This document shows positions 29,587 through 49,679 of a stretch of 64,000 bases of DNA, one piece after another. The notes under the pieces were generated by a model. That model saw nothing but the letters and a program-made list of their open reading frames with translations, was not told the DNA's origin and did not search any database. Source of the stretch: Rhodospirillales bacterium. GTDB taxonomy: Bacteria > Pseudomonadota > Alphaproteobacteria > Acetobacterales > Acetobacteraceae. The position numbers and the translations under genes were made by a program. The stretch's first letter is position 1. Each line of letters starts with the position of its first letter. The DNA is taken from assembly GCA_025352565.1 (NCBI GenBank), contig JANXTF010000149.1, positions 1 through 64,000 of the forward strand. The letters run 5' to 3'.

Positions 29587-30765
29587 TCAGGCCTCGGCTA
29601 ATGCGGCGGCATGGGCCTCCGCGTGGGCCTCCGCCAACAAGGCGGCGGCGGCATCGATGTCGGCGGCGGAGGTAAAGCGTCCGATCCCGATACGCAAGCT
29701 GCGGGCCGCCTGGGCGTCCGACAGGCCCAGCGCGCGCAGCACGTAGGACGGCTCGAGGGCGGCGGACGAGCAGGCGGAGCCGGTGGAGACGCACAGATCG
29801 GGCGTCGCGCGCATCAGGTCGATGGCGGTGGCGGCGGGGAAAATGAGGTTGAGGTTGCCGGAGATGCGCGCGGCCGTGTCGCCGTTCAGCGCGATGCCGG
29901 GGATGGCGCGGCGCAACCGGTCCATCAGGCGATCGCGCAGGGTGGCGATGCGGCGATCGTCTGCCGCCATCTCGGCGCGGGCGAGGCGGCAGGCCTCGCC
30001 CAGCCCCACGATCAGCGGCGGGGCGAGCGTGCCCGAGCGCAGGCCGCGCTCCTGCCCGCCGCCGGAGAAGAGCGGGGCGAGGCGCACGCGCGGACGGCGG
30101 CGCACGAACAGGGCGCCGACGCCTTTGGGGCCATACAGCTTGTGGCCGCTGATCGAGAGCAGGTCGATGCCGAGCGCCTGGACGTCGAGCGGGATCTTGC
30201 CGACCGCCTGGGCCGCGTCGGTGTGGAACAGCGCGCCGTGGCCGCGTGCCATCGCGGCGAGGCTGGCCAGGTTGTGGATCAGGCCGGTCTCGTTGTTCAC
30301 CGCCATGATGCTGACCAGCAGGGTGGGCGTGGCCAGAGCCGCCGCCAGCAAGGCGGGGTCGACATGGCCGTCCGGGCACACCGGGAGAATGACCGGCTCG
30401 AACCCCTCGGCGGCAAGGTCGCGCACGGATTCCAAGACGCATTTGTGCTCGGTGGCCAGCGTGACCACGCGGCGGCGCGGGTTGCTGGTGGCAGAAGCGT
30501 GCCGGGCGGCGCCTTTGATGGCGATGTTGTTGCTCTCGGTGGCGCCCGAGGTCAGCACGATCTCGCGCGGCTCGGCCCCGATCAGGGCGGCGATGTGGGC
30601 GCGGGCGGCCGCGACGGCGTCCTCCGCCTCGATGCCCATGGCGTGCTCGGCGCTGTGCGGGTTGCCGAAGCGTTCGGTGAACCACGGCAGCATGACGGCC
30701 AGCACGCGCGGGTCGCATGACGTGGTGGCCTGGTTGTCGAGGTAGATGCGTTGCATGGCCGGCAT
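29587..30765 (-). CDS. iscS: Cysteine desulfurase (IscS-like)
   Basis: A PLP-dependent class V enzyme converting cysteine to alanine plus enzyme persulfide. The 392-residue protein begins [18 protein letters not shown], contains [17 protein letters not shown], the histidine in [12 protein letters not shown], the PLP lysine in [16 protein letters not shown] near residue 206, and the persulfide cysteine in [16 protein letters not shown] near residue 330. The start could be 30765 or the ATG at 30756. It lies 6 bases after a second desulfurase gene. It probably feeds MnmA and Fe-S assembly; which paralogue does which is not visible. Confidence 0.94.
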
Positions 30766-30771
30766 ATGGGG

Positions 30772-31848
30772 TCAGGCGGCGCGGCGTGCGAGACGGGCGG
30801 CCATGGCCGTGTAGGCCGCGATGAAGGCGTCGATGTCGGCCTCGGTGGCATTCCATGGCAGCGAGACGCGAATTGCCTCGCCCGCGAGTCCCCCCAGCCC
30901 CATGGCGTCGAGCACATGGCTGCGCGCGACCTTGCCCGAACTGCACGCGGCCCCGGCCGAGACGGCGATGCCGGCGAGGTCGAGTGCCATCACCTGCGTG
31001 TCGGCGCGCACCCCCGGCAAGGCGAGACAGGTGGTGTTGCCGAGCCGCGCGGCACCCGTGGCGAGCGCCGTGCCACCGGCGGCGATGGCGGCCCGTTCCG
31101 CGCGGTCGCGCAGAGCGGCGAGGTCTCGCGGCGGCTCCAGGGCAGCGGCGAAGCCCGCGATGGCGGGAAGCGGGGGCGTGCCGCCGCGCCGCCCGCGCTC
31201 CTGCCCGCCGCCCACGATCAGCGGCGGCAGCGCCCGGCCGGGCGCCAGCAGCAGCGCGCCCGCGCCAAGCGGACCGCCGAGCTTGTGGCCGGAGAGGGCG
31301 AGGCTGTCGGCGCCGAGTTCCGCGACATTCACCGCGATCCGCCCGGCGGCCTGCACCGCATCCACATGCAGGAAGGCTCCGGCCGCGCGGCAGAGCGCGG
31401 CGGCCTGGACGACGGGCTGGATCGTGCCGGTCTCGTTGTTGGCCAGCATCAGGCAGACCAGCGCGGGCGGCCCGCGCAACGCATCCGCCAGGGTGGCGAG
31501 GTCGATGACGCCGTCGCGGTCCACCGCGATCGTCACCGCGGCCCCGCCCGCCGCCGCGCGGACGGCGTCGTGTTCGGTGGCGCCGACGATGACGCGACGG
31601 CCCCCGCCAAGCCCCGCGATCGCCAGCGCATTGGCCTCGGTGCCGCCGGACGTGAACACGATGTCGCCGGGCGCCGCGCCGAACCGCGCGCCGAGGCGGT
31701 CGCGCGCATCCTCCAGCAGCCGTCGCGCGGCACGGCCGGGGCCATGGACCGAGGAGGGGTTGCCGACGCTGTCCAGCGCGGCGAGCACCGCCGCGCGGGC
31801 CGATGGGCGCAGCGGTTCGGTGGCGTTGGCGTCAAGATATGTCATCAC
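30772..31848 (-). CDS. Cysteine desulfurase family protein (second paralogue)
   Basis: The 358-residue protein is a class V PLP enzyme: MTYLDANATEPLRPSARAAVL, VFTSGGTEANALAIAGL, histidine in GATEHDAV, PLP lysine in LALSGHKLGGPLGAG near residue 196, and the persulfide cysteine in SAGAACSSGKVARSHVL near residue 315. Both catalytic residues are intact, so it is probably active. It is shorter than the adjacent IscS-like protein by about 34 residues. It is the first gene of the four-gene desulfurase-ferredoxin-mnmA operon. Confidence 0.92.
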   Translation of the reverse strand: MMTYLDANATEPLRPSARAAVLAALDSVGNPSSVHGPGRAARRLLEDARDRLGARFGAAPGDIVFTSGGTEANALAIAGLGGGRRVIVGATEHDAVRAAAGGAAVTIAVDRDGVIDLATLADALRGPPALVCLMLANNETGTIQPVVQAAALCRAAGAFLHVDAVQAAGRIAVNVAELGADSLALSGHKLGGPLGAGALLLAPGRALPPLIVGGGQERGRRGGTPPLPAIAGFAAALEPPRDLAALRDRAERAAIAAGGTALATGAARLGNTTCLALPGVRADTQVMALDLAGIAVSAGAACSSGKVARSHVLDAMGLGGLAGEAIRVSLPWNATEADIDAFIAAYTAMAARLARRAA

Positions 31849-33627: not shown

Positions 33628-34881
33628 ATGTTCGCCATGCCCGCAAGCCCCTTCCTGCATGAAGCCGTCGCACGCGGCTTCGTGTTTCAGTGTACCGATG
33701 CCGACGCGCTCGACTCGGCGCTGCTGGCGGGTAAGGTGTCGGGCTATATCGGGTTCGACTGCACCGCCGACAGCCTCCATGTCGGGAGCCTCGTACAGAT
33801 CATGCTGCTGCGGCTGATGCAGCGCCACGGCCACCGCCCGGTGGTGCTGATGGGCGGCGGCACCACGCGCATCGGCGACCCGTCGGGCCGGGACGAGGTG
33901 CGGCTGCCGCTGACCGACGCGCAGATCGCGGCCAACATGGCCGGTATCCGCCGCTGCTTCGACCCGTTCATCCGCTTCGGCGACGGCCCTTCGGACGCCC
34001 TGATGCCCAACAACGCCGACTGGCTCGACCGGCTCGGCTACATCGAGCTGCTGCGCGAGGTCGGCGCCCATTTCAGCATCAACCGCATGATGAGCTTCGA
34101 CAGCGTGCGGTCTCGGCTGGAGCGGGAGCAGGGGCTGACCTTCCTGGAGTTCAATTACTCCATCCTCCAAAGCTACGATTTCCGCGAACTGCACCGCCGC
34201 CACGGCGTGGCGCTGCAGATGGGCGGCTCGGACCAATGGGGCAACATCGTCTCGGGGGTCGATCTGGTGCGCCGAACGGATGCGCGCACGGTGTTCGGGC
34301 TGACCACGCCGCTGATCGCGACCAGTTCGGGCGCCAAGATGGGCAAGAGCGCCAAGGGCGCGGTGTGGCTGGTGGCCGACCGGCTGCCCGCGTACGAGTA
34401 CTGGCAGTTCTGGCGCAACACCGAGGACGGCGATGTTGGCCGTTTTCTGCGGATGTTCACCGATATTCCGCTAATCGAGATCGCGCGCCTGGAGGCGCTC
34501 GGCGGCTCGGAGATCAACGAGGCCAAGAAGATCCTCGCCACCGAAGCCACGCGGCTCGCCCATGGCGATGCCGCGGCCGAGGCGGCGGCAGAGACCGCGC
34601 GGCGGACCTTCGAGCACGGCGAGGCCGCAGAGTCGCTGCCCAGCATCTCGGTGTCGCGCGCCGATCTGTCCGAGGGGATCACGCTGGTGCGGCTGCTCGT
34701 GCTCGCGGGCCTGGCGGCGAGCAACGGCGAGGCGCGTCGGCTCATCAAGGGCGGCGGCGCGCGGGTCAACGATATGGCCGTGGGCGACGAGGCGCGTGTC
34801 GTGGGCCTGGACGACATGCGCGGCGACGCGATCAAGTTGTCAGCTGGGCGCAAGCAGCATCGGCTGGTCCGCGCGGCGTAG
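33628..34881 (+). CDS. tyrS: Tyrosyl-tRNA synthetase
   Basis: A class I synthetase of about 417 residues. It has [20 protein letters not shown] with the HIGH-like HVGS near residue 49, the tyrosine-site segments YSILQSYDF and [14 protein letters not shown], and [12 protein letters not shown] (KMSKS-like) near residue 233. An S4-type RNA-binding domain is at the C-terminus ([19 protein letters not shown]). The start is at 33628 or the ATG at 33637; earlier in-frame codons lie over the divergent gene. It meets the SGNH hydrolase gene tail-to-tail with one base between. Confidence 0.95.
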
Positions 34882-34882
34882 C

Positions 34883-35638
34883 CTACTGCCCCATCAGCCG
34901 GGTGATCTCGGGCTCCAGCCCTTCGGCCAGTTTGTAGTAGCCGTTGGGGGTCAGGTGCAGATGGTCGAATGACATCTGGTCGGTCAGCCGGCCCGCCGGA
35001 TCGAGCACGCGGGAGGCGCCGTCATAGCTGAACACGACCTGGTTGTCGGTGCAGCGAGTGATCAGCGCGTTCACCTGGTCATTGGCCAGGCGCATTCTGT
35101 CGGAAGGCTCGACGCCGCGCGGCAGCAGCGAAAGCAGCAATATCCTGGTGGCGGGCAGGCGCGCGTGAATCAGACGGACGATCTGGGCGATACCCAGGGC
35201 CGTGTTCTCGGGTGCGCTGCCGGTGCCGGTGTTGTTGGTGCCGGCGAGCAGCACCACCACCTTCGGCCGCAAGCCTGCGAGTTCGTTATGCGAGAGCCGG
35301 TACAGGATTCCCTCGGTCCGATCGCCCCCGATGCCGAGCAGCAGGGGAGTGAGGGGGCCGAAGAATTTCGAGAAGATCGGCGGGTCCCACGACGCGGTGA
35401 TCGAGTCGCCGACGAACACCACCTGGAACGAGGCGCGGTTCACCCGCGCCAGCGCGGAGTCGATGTAGGCCGAGGCCTCTTTCCAGCCGGGATAGTCGAG
35501 TGCGGCCGGCACGGCCTCGCGGGGCAGCGGCGCGTGGGCGGGCAAGCCCGGGCAAAGCTCGGCAGCGTGCGCCGTGGCCGTGCCGAGAAGGGTGGCGCCG
35601 AGAAGGGTGGCGCCAAGAACCAGAGCGGCCCGAAGCAT
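34883..35638 (-). CDS. Secreted SGNH/GDSL hydrolase
   Basis: The 251-residue product has a signal peptide (about residues 1-25, ending ATAHA) and the four SGNH blocks: VVFVGDSITASW near residue 73, GIGGDRTEGILYRL, LLAGTNNTG near residue 127, and the C-terminal DHLHLTPNGYYKL with the Asp/His pair. It resembles the PAF-acetylhydrolase-like subgroup. It is the last gene of the acetylation module, 5 bases after the AlgF/WssG-like gene, so it may add, remove or edit acetyl groups in the periplasm; this role is inference. Confidence 0.85.
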   Translation of the reverse strand: MLRAALVLGATLLGATLLGTATAHAAELCPGLPAHAPLPREAVPAALDYPGWKEASAYIDSALARVNRASFQVVFVGDSITASWDPPIFSKFFGPLTPLLLGIGGDRTEGILYRLSHNELAGLRPKVVVLLAGTNNTGTGSAPENTALGIAQIVRLIHARLPATRILLLSLLPRGVEPSDRMRLANDQVNALITRCTDNQVVFSYDGASRVLDPAGRLTDQMSFDHLHLTPNGYYKLAEGLEPEITRLMGQ

Positions 35639-35643
35639 GCGGC

Positions 35644-36318
35644 TCACCGCTGGTAAGGGGCGATGAAGTCCTGCGCCATGAAGGTGACAGGCGTGCCACC
35701 CGGCGCCATCAGCCAAACGCTGTACAACGCGCCAGCATTCAACTCGCCAAGGTCGAGGCTTGGCACCGCCGCCGCGCCGCACGTGGCGTGAACGCGGGCC
35801 TCGTCCACCGGGCTGATACTCCGGGTCTTCATCGTGGCAGTCGCGACGGCGCTGAACACAACCTGGTTGGCCGGCTCCAGCAGCAACGACGCGGTCGGGC
35901 AGGTGGACGCCGCGTTGTAGAACGAAAGCTTGGACCGCAGCTGGTTGTACTCGGTCACGTCGGTCACAAGTTTGCCGGCAAGCCTGGCGCCGCCTTCGGT
36001 CAGCAGGAATGTATGGAACTTCCCGGCGGCGAGCTGGAAGCTGACGGTGCCACCGTCCTTCGTGGTGGCGGTCAGCGTCTTGCCCGCCGCACCCTCGACC
36101 ACGCGATATTGCGAGATGCGGGATGCGCCGTCGGTGCCGAGTTTCACCGGATCGGTGAAGGCCGGCGCCAGGTCGAGCGGCCCGGTCGTGGTGTTGGCGA
36201 AGCGGACAAAGGCGAACCCTTCGGGCAGCCGCCCCTCGTACAGCGCGATTTGCGCGCCTGCGGGTGCGACGAAGGCAATCGCAGCGACCATGCCCGCGGC
36301 AAGCGCCCAGCGTCGCAT
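35644..36318 (-). CDS. AlgF/WssG-like periplasmic O-acetylation protein
   Basis: The 224-residue protein has a signal peptide (RRWALAAGMVAAIAFVAPAG, then AQ) and the AlgF-type pattern: IALYEGRLPEGFAFVRFANT at the mature start, a middle beta-rich domain, and a C-terminal half with GELNAGALYSVWLM and TFMAQDF. AlgF in alginate and WssG in acetylated cellulose synthesis act with AlgI/J homologues in periplasmic acetyl transfer. Length matches WssG. ATG at 36318 is chosen over a longer in-frame extension lacking similarity. Confidence 0.78.
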   Translation of the reverse strand: MRRWALAAGMVAAIAFVAPAGAQIALYEGRLPEGFAFVRFANTTTGPLDLAPAFTDPVKLGTDGASRISQYRVVEGAAGKTLTATTKDGGTVSFQLAAGKFHTFLLTEGGARLAGKLVTDVTEYNQLRSKLSFYNAASTCPTASLLLEPANQVVFSAVATATMKTRSISPVDEARVHATCGAAAVPSLDLGELNAGALYSVWLMAPGGTPVTFMAQDFIAPYQR

Positions 36319-36320
36319 CG

Positions 36321-36983
36321 TCAGTGCCGTACCAGCGCCTGAACGGCGGGGACCCGGTTGAGAGCGGCGGTAATCGCCCGGCCCCATTGCTGGTAGCCCG
36401 CATAGGTGTGGTGCTGCCCATCGAAGGTCGGCCATTGACCGGGCTGGGACAAGGCCAGGCTGTCGATGTAGGTGCAGTTGGTCAGTGTCGATTTCATGTA
36501 GTCGTTGAATTCCTTCACCCGTGCATAGGTCTTGAAGTACGGCCCGCCCTCGGTGCCCCAGCTTGGGCCGATCCATACGCATGCCAGATTATTGGCGCGG
36601 ATGCGGGTTGTCAGCGCGTTGACGTTCTCGCTGATCCAGCCGCGCGGCAGGTCTTTCTGGTTGTAGCCTGCCATCGTGTCGCCGATTTCGATCAGCACGA
36701 CGTTCGGATGCACCTGCTGGATCAGTTGATCGACGCCCCAGCTGCGCGCGCTCGGCGTCTTGTTCTCCTGCACCGGGCCGGTCCCGATGCGCTGGGCGGA
36801 GCCGCAGGGGACTTCACGGGGCGACACCCAGGCACCCGCCGGCACGCCGCATGCGCCGAACGAATCGACCTTGGCCCCTTCGGAGAGCAGCGCATCGTGG
36901 AGGGTGGAGATCAGGTATCGCGAAGTGGCGAGATGGCTGTCACCGATCACCAGAAAACTCAGGCCTAGCAGCAGGTTAGACAT
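36321..36983 (-). CDS. WssF-like SGNH-fold protein
   Basis: The 220-residue product starts LLLGLSFLVIGDSHLATSRY, with a block I GDS motif at residues 14-16, DSFGACGVPAGAWV, VLIEIGDTMAGYN, and a C-terminal FDGQHHTYAGYQQW with the Asp and His of block V. The N-terminus is only weakly hydrophobic and the GDS lies within it, so export is uncertain. Position between AlgJ-like and AlgF-like genes and the 220-residue length match WssF of the Pseudomonas wss cellulose-acetylation operon. Catalytic activity is plausible but not shown. Confidence 0.72.
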   Translation of the reverse strand: MSNLLLGLSFLVIGDSHLATSRYLISTLHDALLSEGAKVDSFGACGVPAGAWVSPREVPCGSAQRIGTGPVQENKTPSARSWGVDQLIQQVHPNVVLIEIGDTMAGYNQKDLPRGWISENVNALTTRIRANNLACVWIGPSWGTEGGPYFKTYARVKEFNDYMKSTLTNCTYIDSLALSQPGQWPTFDGQHHTYAGYQQWGRAITAALNRVPAVQALVRH

Positions 36984-37049
36984 CTCAATCTCCGGAATAG
37001 GCGGTCAAAGCCAGAATGGGATCGATCATCGCAGCCTATCGAGGAACAA

Positions 37050-38234
37050 TTAAGGCGTGTTCTTCGCCCCGTCCATGCTAAAATCCAACGTTTGTAGAGA
37101 CTTGTCATCGACGCCCAGCGGCTGACCCATCACGCGTTCCGGGATTTCCCAGATCACCAGCTTGGGCGGCGACTCGCGGAACGTGGCGCCGCCAAAATAA
37201 ACGCGGGCGGCGCTGGCGAAACCGCCGCCGGCCTGTGCGAAATTGCCGATGGGAGCGCGTATCGCCTCCGCCAGCCGGCCGGCAAAGTTCGCGTTCACCG
37301 AGTAGGAACTGCCGAGCAGCGCGACCTCGATGGCGGGGCCGTCATCTAGCATATTTTTTACCGCGACTGCCGCGACCGGGGCGGTCTGTTCGACATGCTG
37401 CCGATCGGCGGGCGGCCGCAGTTTCACCGGAAGGTTGTCCGGAACGTGCTCGAGACTCATCAGCCGCAGCAGATCTCCGGCCCACGCCGTCTCGGCTGGA
37501 TCGGCCGTCGTGCGGAACGCATGAGTGCGGTCGAGCGGCGTCTTGATCGCGGCGGCGATGGCGCGCGCGGCGGCGGCGGCGCCCGGCTGGTTCCAGTGGG
37601 TGTCGGTACGGTAGTAGAGCGGTCCCGCGTCGCGGTCGGTGGCGGCGCGCGCGCCGGAAAGGGCGTCGAACAGGTTCACGGTCGGCACTTGCGCCACCGC
37701 GAGGCGGCGCAGCAATTCGGGATACCGGGCTTCGGCCTGCGCCGAGCGCGGGCCGTCCATCTCGGCACGCAGCACGCGCGCCTTGTCCGGCACCAGGGCG
37801 ACCAGCAAGCCGATGTTGCGTGAGGCCAGCGCATCCTGCACGTGTTTGAGGCTGGCGATGCGCGCGCGCACGGCCTCATCCGCGTCGGGAAACGGCCGCA
37901 ACTCCTCGGTCAGGAACAGCCAGTCATGCCGGCCGACCCAGACCTGCGGGCCGCCGGAGTCGAACAGGCGCCAGCGCAGCGCGCCGCCCGTTGCCCGCAA
38001 TGCCTCGTCGATGGGCAGATAATGCGCGGTGACGAAATTCACGGCGGCGGCGGTGCGGCCGGCCACCATCGAGCGGAAATCGAGCGTCCCGTCGAGCCGG
38101 CGTCGAGCGGCCGGCGTGAGCATGGCGGCGATGGCAAGGCAGAAGCCGCCCGCCAGCGCCAGCGCCATCGCAGCACCGAGAACCCGGTCGGCGACGGTCT
38201 CCGGCGGCGTACTGGGGGTCGGGGAAGGTGCCAT
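37050..38234 (-). CDS. AlgJ/AlgX/WssI-like O-acetyltransferase (SGNH-like)
   Basis: The 394-residue protein has an N-terminal membrane anchor near residues 19-39 and a periplasmic catalytic domain. It carries the hallmarks of the AlgX/AlgJ family: WVGRHDWLFLTEELRPF near residue 99, the Asp-His motif YYRTDTHWNQPG near residue 204, and the nucleophile block ALLGSSYSVNANFAG near residue 313. These enzymes take acetyl groups passed through AlgI and acetylate the polymer. ATG at 38234 shares one base with the algI stop (TGATG), so the two should be made together. Confidence 0.87.
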   Translation of the reverse strand: MAPSPTPSTPPETVADRVLGAAMALALAGGFCLAIAAMLTPAARRRLDGTLDFRSMVAGRTAAAVNFVTAHYLPIDEALRATGGALRWRLFDSGGPQVWVGRHDWLFLTEELRPFPDADEAVRARIASLKHVQDALASRNIGLLVALVPDKARVLRAEMDGPRSAQAEARYPELLRRLAVAQVPTVNLFDALSGARAATDRDAGPLYYRTDTHWNQPGAAAAARAIAAAIKTPLDRTHAFRTTADPAETAWAGDLLRLMSLEHVPDNLPVKLRPPADRQHVEQTAPVAAVAVKNMLDDGPAIEVALLGSSYSVNANFAGRLAEAIRAPIGNFAQAGGGFASAARVYFGGATFRESPPKLVIWEIPERVMGQPLGVDDKSLQTLDFSMDGAKNTP

Positions 38235-39685
38235 CAGAATTGAAAATACAGGAAGGGGACGGCGTCGCGGCTGTAGAGCAGGACGATGGCCAGTACGAAG
38301 CCTGCCAAGGGAGCGATCACCGGCAGGGCGGCGGTCCAACCCGTTCGCGGGAGCGCCGGGGCGGATGCCCGGCGGCCTTGCAACAGCGGCAGGTAGATGA
38401 AGAAGATCGCGATTGGGATGAACCAAAGCCGGTCCGGTGTCGCCTGCCATGCCAGCGCGTCCGAGAGCCCGATCCCGTGCGAGCCGGCCCCGTGCGAGCC
38501 CGTCCCGTGCAGCCCCAGCATGCCTGCGTACATGCTCAGCGCCGTTCCGATATCCTTGGCCCGGAACAGCACCCAGCCGATCAGCACGCCGAGCATGGTG
38601 AGCGCGTTGCCGAGCGCGAACGGCATCGGCCTGGCCCCCGGCCGGCGGGACCACCAGCGATGCGCCGCCAGCATTCCGCCATGCAGGATGCCCCAGAAGA
38701 TGAAGTTCCAGCTCGATCCATGCCACAGCCCGCCGATCGCCATGATCGTCATGAGATTGACATAGGTGCGCCCCGGCCCCTTCCGGTTACCACCGAGCGG
38801 GAAATACAGGTAGTCGCGCAGGAAGCGCGACAGCGTCATGTGCCAGCGCTGCCAGAAATCCTGGATCGAGCCGGACAGATAGGGGTTGTCGAAGTTCTGC
38901 GGGAAGTGGAAGCCGATGGTCCGCGCGAGCCCGATTGCCATCAGCGAGTAGCCGGCGAAGTCGAAATAGAGCTGCAGCGTGTAGGCGGTGGCGCCAAGCC
39001 AGGCATCGGCGAGGTTGGGCGTGGCCAGGGTGAAAGCGGCATCCACCAACGGGCTGAGCGTGTCGGCCAGCGCGGTCTTCATGGCAAAGCCGATCATGAA
39101 GATGCGGGCGCCGGCGCCGAACTGCGCCAGGGAGTGGTGGCGGTATTTCAGCTCCTGCTCGATTTCCGCGTAGCGCACGATCGGCCCAGCGATGAGCTGG
39201 GCGAAGATGGCCTTGTAGGTGGCGTAGTTCAGGAAATCCCGGTTGACCGGGACCACGCCGCGGGCGACATCGACGAGATAGCTGACCGATTGGAGCACAT
39301 AGAACGAGAGCCCGATCGGCAGCACGATCTCGGCCCAGGCAACGGGCGCGTGCCCGGCTGCCCCGATCAGCTGGTTGAAGGTCGCGACACCGAAATTCGC
39401 GTATTTGAAATAGGCGAGCACGGCGACGTTGCCGACCACGCCGAACAGCATCCAGCGCCAGCCAGCGGATGAGCGCGGGTCTGCCGAGTCCATCGCCCGG
39501 GCGACCAGCCAGGTGAATACGGTCACCGCGATCAGCAGCAGCAGGAAGTCGATCCGCCACCACGCATAGAACGCCCAGGAGAAGAGCAACATGGGCCAGT
39601 TCCGCAGGCGGAACGGCGTGAGAAAATAGACCGCGAAGAACAGCGGCAGGAACAGGAACAGGAATTCGAACGAGGCGAAGATCAC
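38234..39685 (-). CDS. MBOAT family O-acyltransferase (AlgI/WssH-like)
   Basis: A polytopic membrane O-acyltransferase of 483 residues that is thought to move acetyl groups across the inner membrane to AlgJ/AlgF partners. It begins FASFEFLFLFLPLFFAVYF, contains LPIGLSFYVLQSVSYLVDV, AIFAQLIAGPIVRY, QLYFDFAGYSLMAIGLAR, and the catalytic-histidine segment GGLWHGSSWNFIFWGILHG near residue 320. An odd insertion with three HG-x-GS-type units sits near residues 391-404, encoded by a short DNA repeat at 38473-38517. Confidence 0.9.
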   Translation of the reverse strand: MIFASFEFLFLFLPLFFAVYFLTPFRLRNWPMLLFSWAFYAWWRIDFLLLLIAVTVFTWLVARAMDSADPRSSAGWRWMLFGVVGNVAVLAYFKYANFGVATFNQLIGAAGHAPVAWAEIVLPIGLSFYVLQSVSYLVDVARGVVPVNRDFLNYATYKAIFAQLIAGPIVRYAEIEQELKYRHHSLAQFGAGARIFMIGFAMKTALADTLSPLVDAAFTLATPNLADAWLGATAYTLQLYFDFAGYSLMAIGLARTIGFHFPQNFDNPYLSGSIQDFWQRWHMTLSRFLRDYLYFPLGGNRKGPGRTYVNLMTIMAIGGLWHGSSWNFIFWGILHGGMLAAHRWWSRRPGARPMPFALGNALTMLGVLIGWVLFRAKDIGTALSMYAGMLGLHGTGSHGAGSHGIGLSDALAWQATPDRLWFIPIAIFFIYLPLLQGRRASAPALPRTGWTAALPVIAPLAGFVLAIVLLYSRDAVPFLYFQF

Positions 39686-39724
39686 CGCGAGCCGTCTCCG
39701 CCAACCCTCACAAAGAAGACTGTA

Positions 39725-42367
39725 TCAGCCTCCGGTCGTTCCGCCAACCTGCTGCAACCGAAGTTCGCGTGCGCGCCGCAGGGCGGCGAGCGCGCGACCG
39801 GTGTTGCCGCGGGCGCGGGCGACGTCGGCGATCATCAACTGCGTGCGGTAATCGTCGGGTGCCTGCTGCTCGGCCTCGGCGATCAGGGAATTGGCGCGGC
39901 TGTAATCGCCGGCCTGGATCGCCGAGTCCACGGCCGCGTGCCGCACGTCGAGATCGCTTGGATCGCGTTCCAGCACCGCCTCGTTGATCCGCAGCGCCTG
40001 ATCCGGTTTCTTGTCCGAGGAATAGAGCCGGCTGAGCGCCATGTTCAGGTCCGGTGCATCGGGCTTGCTGGCCAGGCGAGGCGCCAGCGCCTCATACGCG
40101 GCAGCCCGCTTGCCCTCCTGGTTCAGCGTGTCGGATTGCTGGATGGCGATGCCGTTGCGCAGGCCCTCGAGCGCCGAGCGCTGCAGCGGATTGAGGCTGG
40201 CGGGCTCGACGTTGTTTGCCAGCGACGCGGCCCCCTGCTTGTCGCCCGCGTCGAGCAGCGGCGAGACATAGGCGAGACGTTGCGCCGAGGTCTGCGGCCG
40301 CGTGTTGAGCAGCCCCAGCCGGATCGCCTCGCGCGCGCCGGCCTCGTCGCCGGCCGCGAGCAGACGCTTGGAGACCGCCGCCGCCCGCTCGCCCGTCGGG
40401 TCTGGGCGCGAAGCCACCTGCAGCAGCCGGGCGCGGGCGGTGTCGCGATCCGCACCCGCCAGGGCGCCGTTGATGTCGGCCTTCAACGCCGCCTGCTGCT
40501 GGAGCGAACGCATCTCGGGGGTGCGGTCCTTCGCGGGCACGTACTCGATCACCTGGGCCGCGCGAGCGAGGTCGCCCTGCTCCTGCGCGTAGATCATCGA
40601 GGCCTGGATCTGGTCCTTGGTGGGACGCGCGCCAGTGATGGCTCCGTCCATCACCTGGCGTGCCTGCTCGTGCTGGTTCTGTGCGTCGAGCGCGCGGGCG
40701 AGTTCGAGGCGGGTCCAGGGAAAGGCCGGATCGGCCGCGACGGCTTCGCGGAACAGGCTGGCGCGGCGGGCCGGGTCGGGTTCGGCCTGCGCCTGCTTGC
40801 GCAGCGCCACGGCGCGATTCTCGGCGATTCCCTGCGCGCCTGGGGCGCCGGCGGAAACGCCCGCCTTTGCGAGCAACTGCCTGGCCTCGTCGCCCCGGTT
40901 CTCGCGCTCCAGCACGCCGGCAAGATTGACGGCGGCGGCCGAGTTGCGCGAGTTCAGGCGCATCGATCGGCGAAGGCTGGCCTCGGCCTCGGCAAGCTTG
41001 CCCTGCTGGGCCTCCAAGGCGCCAAGTTGGAGGTAGTTGCCCCAGTTGCCGTCGCGGCCCATCAGCTTGCGGAGAAGCGCCTCCGCCTCGGCGTTACGAC
41101 CGCTGCGCGACAGGATGTTGACGCGCGCGTACTGCGCGGCGATGGCCCGCCCGGCGCCATTGTCGCCGCCACGGCCGTTATTCCCGGAAGGCTCGTAGTT
41201 GGCGCCCTTCAGCGCGCCCTCCCACGCCGGGTCGATCTGCGAAGCGCGGCCAAGCAGGTCGCGTGCTTCGGGCAGACGGCCCTGGCGTTGCCGCACGAGT
41301 CCCAGTCCGCCAAGCGCGTCCTTATCGTTGGGATCGATGCTCAGCGCGTTCTGGAACGCGACTTCCGCCTCGCCGAGCCGGTTTTTCTCCAACGCGGTGA
41401 AAGCGTCCTGCCGCGCCCTTCCCGGCGGGTTGCGCGCCAGTTCCAGCTTGGTTTTCAGATCGGTGTCGCTGGGATTGCGGCGCAGATAGGCGTCCAGGCT
41501 ATCGACCGAGCTGGGCTCGTTCGGTAGCCAGGTCAGGGCCTCCTTCAGCGCCTTGTTGGCCTGCTCGCCCACAGCGGGCCTGGTGGCCAACAATTCGAGG
41601 CGCTTGATGCCCTCGAGGCGCGTGCTTTCCCGGAAGGTCTGGATCTGGGCGAAGGCGAGCTGGGCGCGAAGGTCCTGAGGGTTCTGGGTCACCAGGCGTG
41701 CGAGTGCATCGCGGGCCTGATCGAACCCGCCCTCGCTGCCGCCGAGGGTCTGGTAGTATTCGATGGCGAGTCCGGGAAGGGGCGTCTCGCCCTTGAACAC
41801 GCGCTGATAGGCGAGCACCGCGTCAGACGCGTGGCCCTCGCTCGCCAGCCGGCGGGCCTCCGCCAACTGTTTCTGGTCGAGTTCGCCCGATTTGAGACTC
41901 TGGTCGACGCTGGCGATGCGCGGATCGGCGGGATGGGCCGCGCGCAGACGGGCGAGGCTGTCCTGCGCCGCTTGGGCCTGGCCCAGTTCCGCCTGGATCG
42001 GCGCCAACATCGCGAGCGCGTCGGCGTTGGACTTGTCGATGAGCAGAACCCGCGAGAGGCTCTCCATGGCGCGGTCGGACTGGTACTGCGACCGCCAGTA
42101 GGATGCCTGCTCGAGCAGGATGCGGATCGCCGCGTCGGATTTGTCGCTGGCACGCTGTGCCGTCGCTGGATCGGCGGGCGTGCGAGCCGAAGGCTGGGAG
42201 GTGTTGCGCGAGGTCGCGCCAAATTCCGCGAGCGGCTTCACGGTGGTCGGGATCTGCGCCCACGCCGAGCCGCCGATGAGCGTTCCGATGGCGACCGACA
42301 CCAGCAACGCGGCCCGCGAACGAGTCGGGCGCGAAACGCAGCCTGCACGGATCGTCGAGTTTCGCAT
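39725..42367 (-). CDS. BcsC-like TPR protein lacking the outer-membrane barrel domain
   Basis: The 880-residue protein has a signal peptide (residues about 17-38, ending SAWAQ) and then TPR units throughout, for example RAMESLSRVLLIDKSNADAL, LGEAEVAFQNALSIDPNDKD and KLAEAEASLRRSMRLNSRN. The repeat arrangement matches the periplasmic TPR part of BcsC/WssE, the cellulose export subunit. BcsC normally continues with a roughly 350-residue 16-strand barrel; here the gene stops after the last TPR helix (RARELRLQQVGG). It leads the acetylation operon, 39 bases before algI. It probably acts as a periplasmic scaffold; a separate porin would be needed. Confidence 0.8.
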   Translation of the reverse strand: MRNSTIRAGCVSRPTRSRAALLVSVAIGTLIGGSAWAQIPTTVKPLAEFGATSRNTSQPSARTPADPATAQRASDKSDAAIRILLEQASYWRSQYQSDRAMESLSRVLLIDKSNADALAMLAPIQAELGQAQAAQDSLARLRAAHPADPRIASVDQSLKSGELDQKQLAEARRLASEGHASDAVLAYQRVFKGETPLPGLAIEYYQTLGGSEGGFDQARDALARLVTQNPQDLRAQLAFAQIQTFRESTRLEGIKRLELLATRPAVGEQANKALKEALTWLPNEPSSVDSLDAYLRRNPSDTDLKTKLELARNPPGRARQDAFTALEKNRLGEAEVAFQNALSIDPNDKDALGGLGLVRQRQGRLPEARDLLGRASQIDPAWEGALKGANYEPSGNNGRGGDNGAGRAIAAQYARVNILSRSGRNAEAEALLRKLMGRDGNWGNYLQLGALEAQQGKLAEAEASLRRSMRLNSRNSAAAVNLAGVLERENRGDEARQLLAKAGVSAGAPGAQGIAENRAVALRKQAQAEPDPARRASLFREAVAADPAFPWTRLELARALDAQNQHEQARQVMDGAITGARPTKDQIQASMIYAQEQGDLARAAQVIEYVPAKDRTPEMRSLQQQAALKADINGALAGADRDTARARLLQVASRPDPTGERAAAVSKRLLAAGDEAGAREAIRLGLLNTRPQTSAQRLAYVSPLLDAGDKQGAASLANNVEPASLNPLQRSALEGLRNGIAIQQSDTLNQEGKRAAAYEALAPRLASKPDAPDLNMALSRLYSSDKKPDQALRINEAVLERDPSDLDVRHAAVDSAIQAGDYSRANSLIAEAEQQAPDDYRTQLMIADVARARGNTGRALAALRRARELRLQQVGGTTGG

Positions 42368-42429
42368 CTAAAACCTTCTCTTCGTATCGTCAAACGCATG
42401 CGATTTATGCAGCAAACGCGCCGCCTTCG

Positions 42430-42786
42430 CTACAGTTTAGGCGTGTCACGCCCTGGACCAGCTCCCGCACAGGATCGAAGCGGCGACGACAGTTCCGTAT
42501 ATGCTAAGTCCGAGCGCCAATGCCATGAATAGCGCGGTGGCCATGAATAGCGCGGTGATCGAGCCAGTGGCCCGAAAGGCCAGCCGCCGCCGGTCGCCAC
42601 GATGACGCCGGGAAATACCAGCGCCATGCCAGCCAGCGCATTGATGCCGAGGCCGTCGCGGAACTCATCGAACCGCGTGAGGCCGCCGGCGGCATCGCGC
42701 AGGATCAGGATGCTGCACCACTCGCCCACCCGGTCGAGGCTGTGGAAGATGGGGTCGCACAAGGACGGGTCGGTATCATTTTGCAA
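42430..42786 (-). pseudogene. Truncated HxlR-family regulator fused to unrelated sequence
   Basis: The first 49 residues of this frame match the start of HxlR winged-helix regulators: a cysteine, then SLDRVGEWCSILILRDAAGG and LTRFDEFRDGLGI. The rest of the helix-turn-helix domain is missing. After about 42640 the sequence becomes hydrophobic (ALAGMALVFPGVIVATGGG), and one frame over, GSITALFMATALFMALALG continues a membrane-like stretch before a stop near 42455. This looks like a deletion joining an HxlR gene start to the end of a membrane protein gene, with a later frameshift. An 18-bp direct repeat (GCCATGAATAGCGCGGTG) lies at 42521-42557. Confidence 0.6.
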
Positions 42787-42792
42787 GTGACA

Positions 42793-43569
42793 TTAGGCGG
42801 CCTTCGTCATCTCCGGCGCACCCAGTTCGATCAGGTGGCCCCAGCGCCCGGCCGAATGCAGGTGCGCGAAAATGGCCGCAAGCCAGCCTTTGTGGCGCCA
42901 TTCGAGGAACGTCGCGTCGCTCAGCTTGTCCAGCCGGTCCGCCAGCAGCAGCTTGAAGCCGCGGATGCGGGTGTTGCCGCCGGCGGTGAAGTTGATGTTG
43001 GCCTCCTCCTCCGCCAGCAGCCCGGCCTCGTCCAGCGCGTGGGCGAACACGCCGGCGGCCGTCAGGTTGTCGCGATAGCTGGAGCAGAAGCCGATCGCCT
43101 CGTTCAGCGTGGCGCTCGGCTTGCCGTCCTCGAACAACTTCATGCCGACGTTGTGGCGCAGGCAGGCCGCGTCCGGCTCCATGCCGACATAGGTGGTGTT
43201 CGCGGCCGCGTCCTCGACGAAGATGAACGGGAAGGCGCGGATATAGGCGGGGATGTAGCTGTTGGGCCGCCATGTGCCGTCCGGCTGGACAAACAAGTTA
43301 TGGCCCTGCCGCAAGCCGAGCAGCGCCACCGGCATCGGATTGGGCCCCGTGGTGAACACGATCGGGAAATGCTGGGCGGCGGCCTCGAACTCGCCCAGGC
43401 CCAGCGGGACGGACTGCGCCTCGGCGCTGAAGGCATAGCCCACGCCGCGGTCGAGCCGGATGTCGCCATGCAGGCCAGGGTTCACGCCCACGACGCGCTT
43501 GTAGAACAGCGGCAGCGGCGGGCGGGGGGCTTCGAGGGCGGCGGTCACGGTCGGTGTGGCGTCGGACAT
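42793..43569 (-). CDS. SapC family protein
   Basis: The 258-residue protein fits the SapC family (named after an S-layer-associated protein; function uncertain). Seen in order: LPLFYKRVVGVNPGLHGDIR near residue 19, FPIVFTTGPNPMPVALLGL near residue 68, YIPAYIRAFPFIFVED near residue 105, and a C-terminal INFTAGGNTRIRGFKLLLAD followed by LDKLSDATFLEWRHKGWLA. No signal peptide. The gene stands alone between the HxlR remnant and the CinA-like gene. Confidence 0.88.
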   Translation of the reverse strand: MSDATPTVTAALEAPRPPLPLFYKRVVGVNPGLHGDIRLDRGVGYAFSAEAQSVPLGLGEFEAAAQHFPIVFTTGPNPMPVALLGLRQGHNLFVQPDGTWRPNSYIPAYIRAFPFIFVEDAAANTTYVGMEPDAACLRHNVGMKLFEDGKPSATLNEAIGFCSSYRDNLTAAGVFAHALDEAGLLAEEEANINFTAGGNTRIRGFKLLLADRLDKLSDATFLEWRHKGWLAAIFAHLHSAGRWGHLIELGAPEMTKAA

Positions 43570-48686: not shown

Positions 48687-49679
48687 TCAGTTGGCGAGAA
48701 TATGGGCATCCTCGGGTGCGAAGCCCGCGACCACGCGATCTCCGAGGGCGACGGGGTGGGCGTGGAACTCGGCCTCGCTGAGCAGCACGCTATGCGCGGC
48801 GCCGTCGTCGTCGCGGAGCGCGAGGCGGACGAAGGGACCATGATATTCGACGGCGGTGATCCGGCCTGGCAGGCGGCGCGGCAGGTTCGCGGGCGGCATC
48901 AGGCGCATGCGGTCGCTGCGGATGGCAATGCGGTTCGCACCGTCCTGCAGCACCACATGGCCGCCCAGGAAGCGGGCGACGAAGGTGGTGGCGGGGCGCT
49001 CGAACACCTCGCGCGGGCTGCCGGTTTGCAGGATGCGGCCGCGCTCCATCACCACGACGAGGTCAGCCAGCGCCATCGCCTCGTCCTGCGCGTGCGTCAC
49101 GTGGATGAAGGTGATGCCGATTTCGCGTTGCAGCCGCTTCAGCTCCTCGCGCATCTGGCCGCGCAGGAAGGGGTCGAGCGCCGAAAGCGGCTCGTCGAGC
49201 AGCAGCACACTTGGGTTGGTGATCAGCGCGCGGGCGAGGGCGATGCGCTGCTGTTGGCCGCCGGAGAGCTGGGCCGGTCGGCGCTCGGCAAGGTCGGCCA
49301 ATTGCACGCGCTCCAGCATGGCGCGGGCCTGGGCCCGGCGTTCGGCTTTCCCGATGCCGCGCATCTTGAGGCTGAAGGCGACGTTGTCGAGGCAGGAGAG
49401 ATGCGGGAACAGGGCGTAGCTCTGAAACATCATGGCCGTGCCGCGCCTGGAGGGCGGCAGGGCGGTGACGTTCAGGCCGCCGATCAGGATGTCGCCGGCG
49501 GTCGGCGTTTCGTGGCCCGCGATCATGCGCAGGGTGGACGTCTTGCCGCAGCCGGACGGGCCGATCAGGCAGCAATAGCTGCCGGCGGGGATCGCGAGGT
49601 CGATGCCATCGACAGCCGCCATCAAGCCGAACAGCTTCGATACCGCGACCAGTTCGACGCCCTTGGTCTCAGCCGTCAC
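48687..49679 (-). CDS. ABC transporter ATP-binding protein (PotA/spermidine-putrescine type)
   Basis: The 330-residue ATPase has Walker A GPSGCGKTSTL near residue 44, the Q-loop MMFQSYALFPH, the signature LSGGQQQRIALARAL near residue 138, Walker B VLLLDEPLSALD, and the H-loop VTHAQDEAMAL. A C-terminal TOBE-type region follows (RMRLMPPANLP and after), as in PotA/MalK-type importers. I take GTG at 49679 with an AAGGGGG site upstream; an ATG extension of 46 codons lies in a palindrome-rich region. No permease or binding protein is adjacent, so the substrate is not evident. Confidence 0.9.
   Translation of the reverse strand: MTAETKGVELVAVSKLFGLMAAVDGIDLAIPAGSYCCLIGPSGCGKTSTLRMIAGHETPTAGDILIGGLNVTALPPSRRGTAMMFQSYALFPHLSCLDNVAFSLKMRGIGKAERRAQARAMLERVQLADLAERRPAQLSGGQQQRIALARALITNPSVLLLDEPLSALDPFLRGQMREELKRLQREIGITFIHVTHAQDEAMALADLVVVMERGRILQTGSPREVFERPATTFVARFLGGHVVLQDGANRIAIRSDRMRLMPPANLPRRLPGRITAVEYHGPFVRLALRDDDGAAHSVLLSEAEFHAHPVALGDRVVAGFAPEDAHILAN

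Follow-up and report, generated by a model that had tools for sequence, protein, structure and literature searches.

A six-gene acetylation operon

We analysed a 64-kb stretch of DNA (the window) from a Rhodospirillales bacterium of the family Acetobacteraceae. It forms the start of contig C158, which is 95.7 kb long, in a genome of 4.5 Mb and 164 contigs. The window contains an operon for the acetylation of a polysaccharide, whose first gene encodes the tetratricopeptide repeat (TPR) arm of the cellulose export protein BcsC. Six open and tightly packed reading frames run from 42367 to 34883, all on the minus strand, and the start of the AlgJ gene overlaps the stop of the MBOAT gene (at 38234):

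39725..42367, minus strand: barrel-less TPR arm of the BcsC type, 880 amino acids, presumed periplasmic scaffold (reading frame, NCBIfam BcsC match and PDB BcsC match)
38234..39685, minus strand: AlgI/WssH-type MBOAT acyltransferase, 483 amino acids, GTG start (PF03062, E = 3.9e-25)
37050..38234, minus strand: AlgJ/WssI-type SGNH acetyltransferase, 394 amino acids (PF16822 or ALGX, E = 2.2e-60; PDB AlgJ 4o8v, E = 2e-32)
36321..36983, minus strand: WssF/BcsX-type SGNH protein, 220 amino acids, without a Pfam family (invariant residues, structural model and synteny)
35644..36318, minus strand: AlgF/WssG-like secreted protein, 224 amino acids (PF11182, E = 4.3e-6)
34883..35647, minus strand: secreted GDSL/SGNH hydrolase-like protein, 254 amino acids, starting with GTG at 35647 or ATG at 35638 (PF13472 or Lipase_GDSL_2, E = 7.6e-23)

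An earlier note on this DNA, made from its letters alone, had described this operon with the same six kinds of genes, the last of them for an extra secreted SGNH hydrolase, and the reading frames, Pfam matches, relatives and structural models bear this out. The note also likened the operon to the wss genes of Pseudomonas. The kinds of genes do correspond, but the order is H-I-F-G in the window and F-G-H-I in wss (PMC10302187). The order in the window is that of the Methylobacterium bcs cluster.

BcsC is divided between two loci

In this genome, BcsC is divided between the window, which encodes an arm without a barrel, and another contig (C83, 19.4 kb), which encodes a barrel with about 2.5 TPRs. 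The 880-residue protein in the window matches TPR families in Pfam. It also matches the NCBIfam model of BcsC (E = 1.5e-38), and the best stretch corresponds to BcsC positions 24-655 and scores 132 bits, which is far under the cut-off of 858 for the whole protein. BcsC from the PDB (9b8a) matches it as well (E = 2.5e-18). By eye, the protein begins with a Sec-type signal (...GGSAWA, then QIP), and its hydrophobic stretch is not followed by a lipobox cysteine. We found no BCSC_C barrel in it, and the genome's only BCSC_C match is on C83, so the BcsC-like protein of the earlier note is BcsC-like in its arm and not in its barrel. The nearest full-length BcsC arms are about 44-47% identical to the window arm, which nests among BcsC arms. 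Residues 789-875 share 49% identity with the TPRs of the short BcsC on C83, and clear similarity between these two proteins is confined to that stretch (761-878 in a second comparison).

The earlier note had proposed searching the genome for bcsA or bcsB. A search for BcsB gave one match, on C83, where the order of genes is BcsZ (GH8), a reading frame of 354 amino acids, a 1578-residue BcsAB fusion with PilZ, and a 721-residue BcsC. In an AlphaFold2 model of this short BcsC, about 2.5 TPRs (helices at 90-175) are followed by an unstructured region of very low confidence (181-333) and the barrel (337-714); the predicted local distance difference test (pLDDT) score averages only 65 and the predicted template modelling score is 0.56. 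On C83 we found no homologs of the window's acetylation proteins, and the window AlgJ is the only match to PF16822 in the genome. The search thus gave no bcs operon with acetylation genes of its own, which was one of the conditions that the earlier note had named as speaking against its reading. So, BcsA, BcsB, BcsZ and BcsC are not in one operon with the acetylation genes, as they would be in a Wss system. The earlier note had seen no synthase in the window, and this extends to all of contig C158, which has no match to the glycosyltransferase family PF13641 (other glycosyltransferase families were not searched).

The 354-residue reading frame between BcsZ and BcsAB (L005:14378-15442) has no match in Pfam or NCBIfam. 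At the same place in the sister genome that is described below, there is a partly similar reading frame of 231 amino acids (L089:15916-16611).

The acetylation proteins

The window MBOAT is 83% identical to the copy in the sister genome and 69% identical to that of Methylobacterium indicum. In the AlgJ-like protein, D211, H213 and S310 are invariant, and we take these to be the catalytic residues, as in AlgJ/AlgX. By eye, it has a membrane segment at its N-terminus. These two proteins are the counterparts of the WssH and WssI pair of the Wss system. Another MBOAT is encoded elsewhere in this genome (L006, on C75), near a reading frame that by eye resembles AMP-dependent ligases; these are perhaps a D-alanylation-like set.

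In the WssF-like protein, G14, S16, H17, D188 and H191 are invariant among 20 relatives, and S16/D188/H191 is a candidate catalytic triad. BcsX of Komagataeibacter, which is 54% similar to Pseudomonas WssF, has a triad of Ser16/Asp187/His190 (PMC9318390). We consider the window protein to be a homolog of WssF by way of this residue numbering and of synteny in Bordetella and Achromobacter, rather than by direct comparison with Pseudomonas WssF. It is 63% identical to WssF from M. indicum. Its AlphaFold2 model is SGNH-like (pLDDT of 95), and Foldseek matched the model mainly to SGNH/GDSL esterases; PatB, a peptidoglycan O-acetyltransferase, ranked 49th. Searching the sequences of the PDB with this protein gave only a chance match.

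The AlgF-like protein scores 26.8 bits against PF11182, which is under the cut-off of 34.4, and 10 of the 12 aligned AlgF-like members match this family with E ≤ 0.01, so we consider it a homolog of WssG/AlgF. The GDSL protein has invariant residues G77-D78-S79, N135, D225 and H228, and its gene adjoins the AlgF-like gene in several relatives. It is a second candidate for an O-acetyl transferase, or it may be an esterase that trims acetyl groups.

Divided BcsC and the acetylation module across the family

We surveyed 220 genomes from the family, of which two represent the genus of the window (its own genome, G000, and the sister genome, G010). Both show a divided BcsC. In G010, BcsZ and BcsAB are followed by a short BcsC of 746 amino acids, and an arm of 853 amino acids lies within the order GDSL-AlgJ2-AlgF-arm-MBOAT-AlgJ, where AlgJ is cut by the end of the contig. 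The stretch of G010 that we examined has no WssF-like gene, and the window has no AlgJ2.

The window AlgJ has matches in 24 genomes, and we counted the acetylation module as present in 18 of them: 17 with at least 48% identity, and G010 (70%, in a fragment at a contig end). We left out the weak matches in G005, G039, G041, G084, G105 and G198, the best of which has E = 3.2e-14. BCSC_C was found in 75 of the 220 genomes, including 17 of the 18 with the module and 58 of the other 202 (Fisher's exact test, P = 4e-8). Barrel-less arms were found in 6 of the 18 and in none of the 202 (P = 1.3e-7). Neither test is corrected for phylogeny. BcsB was found in 17 of the 19 genomes searched (the 18 with the module and G105); it was missing from G163 and G203, and the match in G160 is short and weak.

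The six genomes contain eight barrel-less arms: one each in G000, G010, G201 and G003 and two each in G142 and G163. Seven of the eight adjoin acetylation genes (the exception is on contig C22 of G163). For the second arm in G142, the reading frame has 862 amino acids and the match runs over one TGA at the C-terminal end, with no BCSC_C there. We searched for arms with E ≤ 1e-15 and scored only four candidates in each genome, so some arms may be missed. Only frames clear of contig ends were counted; five candidates were dropped because the frame or the match reaches the end of a contig (G206:C501, G206:C254, G105:C196, G074:C307 and G087:C205).

A comparison of gene order within Acetobacteraceae, which the earlier note had also proposed, places acetylation genes beside full-length BcsC in several relatives. 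In G106, G174, G044, G011, G215 and G123, these genes include MBOAT and AlgJ, while in G006, G105 and G015 they are AlgJ2 and AlgF only. The MBOAT-AlgJ pair and BcsC are on different contigs in G006, G003 and others, as in the window's genome. In G142, a short BcsC, MBOAT, AlgJ, AlgJ2, AlgF, two arms and GDSL are in one cluster with BcsAB.

We accepted shortened BcsC proteins from five genomes (G000, G010, G142, G084 and G147). In G084 and G147, which belong to another genus, BcsC has 963 or 776 amino acids, with a much reduced TPR arm, and is beside BcsAB (L093 and L094). The BcsC on contig C80 of G003 is moderately short (1082 amino acids). Short frames that run into or start at contig ends were rejected (G027, G137, G160:C428, G206:C271 and G212:C99), and neither a partial frame (G111:C23) nor fragments (G094:C625, G060 and G104) were counted.

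Origin of the arm and the short BcsC

In a tree of the barrels (a quick IQ-TREE run, with support from the SH-like approximate likelihood ratio test only), the short BcsC proteins of G010 and G000 group together, and next to them is the full-length BcsC of G006 (supports of 98 and 99). In G006, this gene is followed by AlgJ2 and AlgF. The division of BcsC was not clean: the last 2.5 or so TPRs are kept in both the arm and the short BcsC, and the two copies are not sisters. This weakens simple gene fission as an explanation, and duplication with complementary loss fits better.

The arms also seem to have recombined. Comparing the window arm to the arm of G010 (L088:1653-4214) in blocks of 50 residues, identity is 27-47% over residues 1-550 and 56-87% over residues 551-880, with an abrupt step near residue 550 from about 36% to about 75%. 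The same comparison showed no such step in three pairs of full-length proteins or in two other pairs of arms. It is as if the N-terminal half of the TPRs had been exchanged. The C-terminal halves of the two arms are sisters (support of 100). The N-terminal half of the window arm groups with BcsC from G065, G006 and Methylobacterium (97). The N-terminal halves from G010, G142 and G163 group in a single clade (100), which is nested in a larger one that comprises 15 rows from 14 loci (100). Acetylation genes are in the examined stretch for 13 of these 14 loci, vs. 2 of 13 other loci whose flanks sum to 4 kb or more. (Another 22 loci had too little flank, and the window, which is left out of these counts, is a further linked locus outside the clade.) A tree of whole arms, which places the arms of the window, G010, G142 and G163 with BcsC from G006 (99), was not relied on alone, as the two halves give different clades. 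The best fit to these trees would be duplication and complementary loss, after which arms recombined with one another. The arms of G003 and G201 branch in a different part of the tree, which points to either more than one origin of arms or their movement.

Proposed role in acetylating cellulose

We lean towards the view that this genome has an acetylated-cellulose system in two halves, with modification encoded by the operon and synthesis by C83, and that the arm of the split BcsC acts as a scaffold. The earlier note suggested a free-standing module that modifies a polymer made elsewhere. With BcsZ, BcsAB and BcsC on C83, cellulose fits as that polymer and is the most likely substrate. The module is not entirely free-standing, as its first gene is the barrel-less arm of BcsC and the BcsC on C83 is without most of its arm.

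From gene content, the division of BcsC, co-occurrence and conservation, we infer the following route. BcsAB would extrude cellulose into the periplasm, where the first TPRs of the free arm would dock onto BcsB, much as TPR#1 of E. coli BcsC sits on BcsB (PMC11379886), and the arm would carry the acetylation enzymes as AlgK, which binds AlgX (PMC9734138), carries AlgX. That the arm would tie together BcsB, the acetylation enzymes and the short pore is proposed because of homology. Acetyl groups would pass from the cytoplasm via WssH (the MBOAT) to WssI (the AlgJ-like protein), and then onto cellulose, either directly or through WssF or the GDSL protein. WssI is reported to move acetyl groups to cello-oligomers, and the leading model for Wss is WssH to WssI to WssF (PMC10302187). 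AlgF/WssG would act as an adaptor; AlgF is described as an adaptor that binds AlgJ and AlgX (PMC10641220). The acetylated chain would exit via the short BcsC barrel. If so, this cellulose exporter would be laid out like that of alginate (AlgK and AlgE), with an arm that shares an operon, and presumably its expression, with the modifying enzymes.

Several observations weigh against this proposal. The operon and the C83 locus are on different contigs, and by their coordinates they are at least 37.6 kb or so apart even if the contigs abut. The genome has 20 matches to PF13641, none of them on C158, so other polymers are possible. G163, which is 92% complete, has two arms (L113 and L114), AlgJ2, AlgF and a MBOAT-AlgJ pair (L087), and no match to BcsB or BCSC_C, so arms can serve another purpose or be leftovers. 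In G003 and G201, arms coexist with BcsC proteins that have their own arms. Conversely, no separate arm was found in G084 or G147 at the thresholds of our search, so a short BcsC may manage without it. The WssF-like protein has no clear signal peptide by eye, a doubt that is also stated for BcsX (PMC9318390). The arms of the window and G010 are mosaic, with N-terminal halves in different clades, and the TPRs shared by arms and short BcsC proteins form separate pairs (in a tree of 104 columns with few resolved forks). Finally, the acetylation, the expression and the contacts are all predicted from sequence.

The first three of these observations would instead fit an operon that acetylates another exopolysaccharide, made by another GT2 enzyme, with the arm recruited from BcsC to a new pathway. 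We scanned the four best matches to PF13641 (the other 16, with BcsAB among them, were not scanned). Two are the hopanoid enzymes HpnI and HpnB; the other two, on C164 and C116, match synthase models, but far under their cut-offs, although the protein on C164 (943 amino acids) does have a weakly BcsA-like domain. None of the four is on the operon's contig. Given also that the BcsC barrel is present in 17 of the 18 genomes with the module, and that acetylation genes are beside bcs genes in several relatives, we think that another polymer is an unlikely substrate.

Another explanation is that the TPR gene encodes an ordinary scaffold of the BcsK/AlgK type and that the short BcsC works alone, so that this would be a conventional acetylated-cellulose system that was rearranged. 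The window arm is like BcsK in being TPR-only and, judging from its signal-like N-terminus (by eye), periplasmic. TPR-only BcsK often replaces BcsC in type III systems (PMC11470070, PMC6559018), and G084 and G147 have a shortened BcsC with no arm found. But BcsK is described as being present instead of BcsC, and here there is a BCSC_C barrel beside the BcsAB fusion while the arm is outside the bcs cluster, so the arm does not look like the stand-in of a type III system (we compare it to BcsK by description only). Also, the window arm nests among BcsC arms. This seems to us slightly less plausible than another polymer. That the arm is a decaying relic of a BcsC whose barrel was lost from the operon is the least probable of the three: Methylobacterium has a full BcsC (and BcsD) just ahead of its acetylation genes, which makes loss of a barrel plausible, and the two species of the genus have very different N-terminal halves of the arm, but the arms are intact over 880 codons (window) and 853 codons (sister genome), their last 330 residues are 75% identical, and barrel-less arms persist in six genomes, beside acetylation genes in seven of eight cases.

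Returning to the arm as a scaffold for cellulose acetylation, a broader idea seems possible to us, if doubtful. The alginate layout may have been reached more than once, here by freeing the BcsC solenoid from the pore and placing it in an acetylation operon. Cellulose could then be exported plain via the short pore, or acetylated when the arm and the enzymes are expressed, and the N-terminal half of the TPRs would be an exchangeable module that accompanies acetylation genes. If a separate BcsC arm really is encoded with acetylation enzymes, it offers a natural test of whether the arm's role is to recruit modifying enzymes, to guide the chain, or both. The distribution of acetylated cellulose may also be wider than was described: acetylated-cellulose operons were reported from four of the species surveyed, with BcsC lost in some alphaproteobacteria (PMC7112194), vs. 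the module in 18 of 220 genomes from one family here.

Other features near the operon

Upstream of the operon is a SapC protein (Pfam), and downstream is a convergent reading frame that by eye is a tyrosyl-tRNA synthetase. A promoter scan of 34600-42900 found no sigma-70-like site and is uninformative. At 29587-31848, two adjacent reading frames on the minus strand both resemble cysteine desulfurases of the NifS type by eye. ARAGORN reports a tRNA-Ala with the anticodon AGC at 49278-49362. This anticodon is unusual for tRNA-Ala in bacteria, and the call is perhaps false.

Comparison with known systems

Scanning named genomes with an alignment of the WssF-like protein gave 22 loci, which come from M. 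indicum, Acidisphaera, species of the Roseomonas group, Bordetella, Achromobacter and several metagenome-assembled genomes. In 19 of these 22 loci, an AlgF-, MBOAT- or AlgJ-like gene is in the examined stretch; two loci have none (L169 and L177), and L171 has bcs genes. The loci of Bordetella and Achromobacter read BcsB (twice)-BcsZ-BcsC-WssF-WssF-AlgF-MBOAT-AlgJ, where MBOAT is preceded by an unlabelled gap. Like the Wss systems of these bacteria and Pseudomonas fluorescens, the window has homologs of WssH, WssI, WssF and WssG (AlgF-like). Unlike them, the window has no synthase genes, its order is TPR-H-I-F-G-GDSL, its BcsC is divided, and there is an extra secreted GDSL protein.

The Methylobacterium clusters are the closest in layout. 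In M. indicum, the acetylation genes adjoin a full-length BcsC. Plasmid pMaq22A_2p of M. aquaticum has, in one direction, bcsA-bcsB-bcsC-bcsD-MBOAT-hypothetical-SGNH-DUF4397-GDSL, where the hypothetical protein is AlgJ (by search), the SGNH protein is WssF, and DUF4397 is in the position of AlgF. The window's MBOAT-AlgJ-WssF-AlgF-GDSL genes have the identical order and direction, but the window has just the TPR arm where the plasmid has bcsA, bcsB, a full-length bcsC and bcsD. Because the plasmid has a full BcsC and BcsD in front of genes in the same order, the operon resembles a cluster of this kind in which just the arm of BcsC was retained ahead of the acetylation genes.

The bcsII operon of Komagataeibacter (bcsABII-bcsX-bcsY-bcsCII) shares a WssF homolog, BcsX, with nearly identical triad positions. 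Its acyltransferase is BcsY, and no MBOAT/AlgJ pair is named in the available portion of the source (PMC9318390). There, bcsCII is described as one gene, which is disrupted or incomplete in some strains.

The repeat scaffold is part of the porin in the cellulose, Pel and poly-N-acetylglucosamine systems and is separate in alginate export (PMC9384988). The window arm is homologous to BcsC over nearly its whole length, and their C-terminal TPRs are alike, but it has no barrel; on C83, another gene encodes the barrel with about 2.5 TPRs. Type III Bcs systems have BcsK, which serves as a scaffold only (PMC11470070; also PMC6559018 and PMC9012009) and is likewise TPR-only and periplasmic. Unlike BcsK as it is described, the window arm is related to BcsC and is encoded in an acetylation operon, and the genome also has a BCSC_C barrel. 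None of the best 40 of 171 plasmid matches is annotated as BcsK.

A separate TPR protein that is tied to an AlgI/J/F set also recalls the alginate system (AlgK-AlgE with AlgIJFX). AlgK is lipid-anchored and has Sel1-like repeats (PMC9384988), whereas the window arm is of the BcsC type and has no lipobox by eye. Searches for a divided or TPR-only BcsC and for Wss-type acetylation gave, among titles and the opening lines of abstracts in the open-licence literature, no description of such an arrangement. TPR-only scaffolds (BcsK and AlgK) and the acetylated cellulose of Wss are both known, and what appears to be new here is that the arm and the barrel of BcsC are separate genes.

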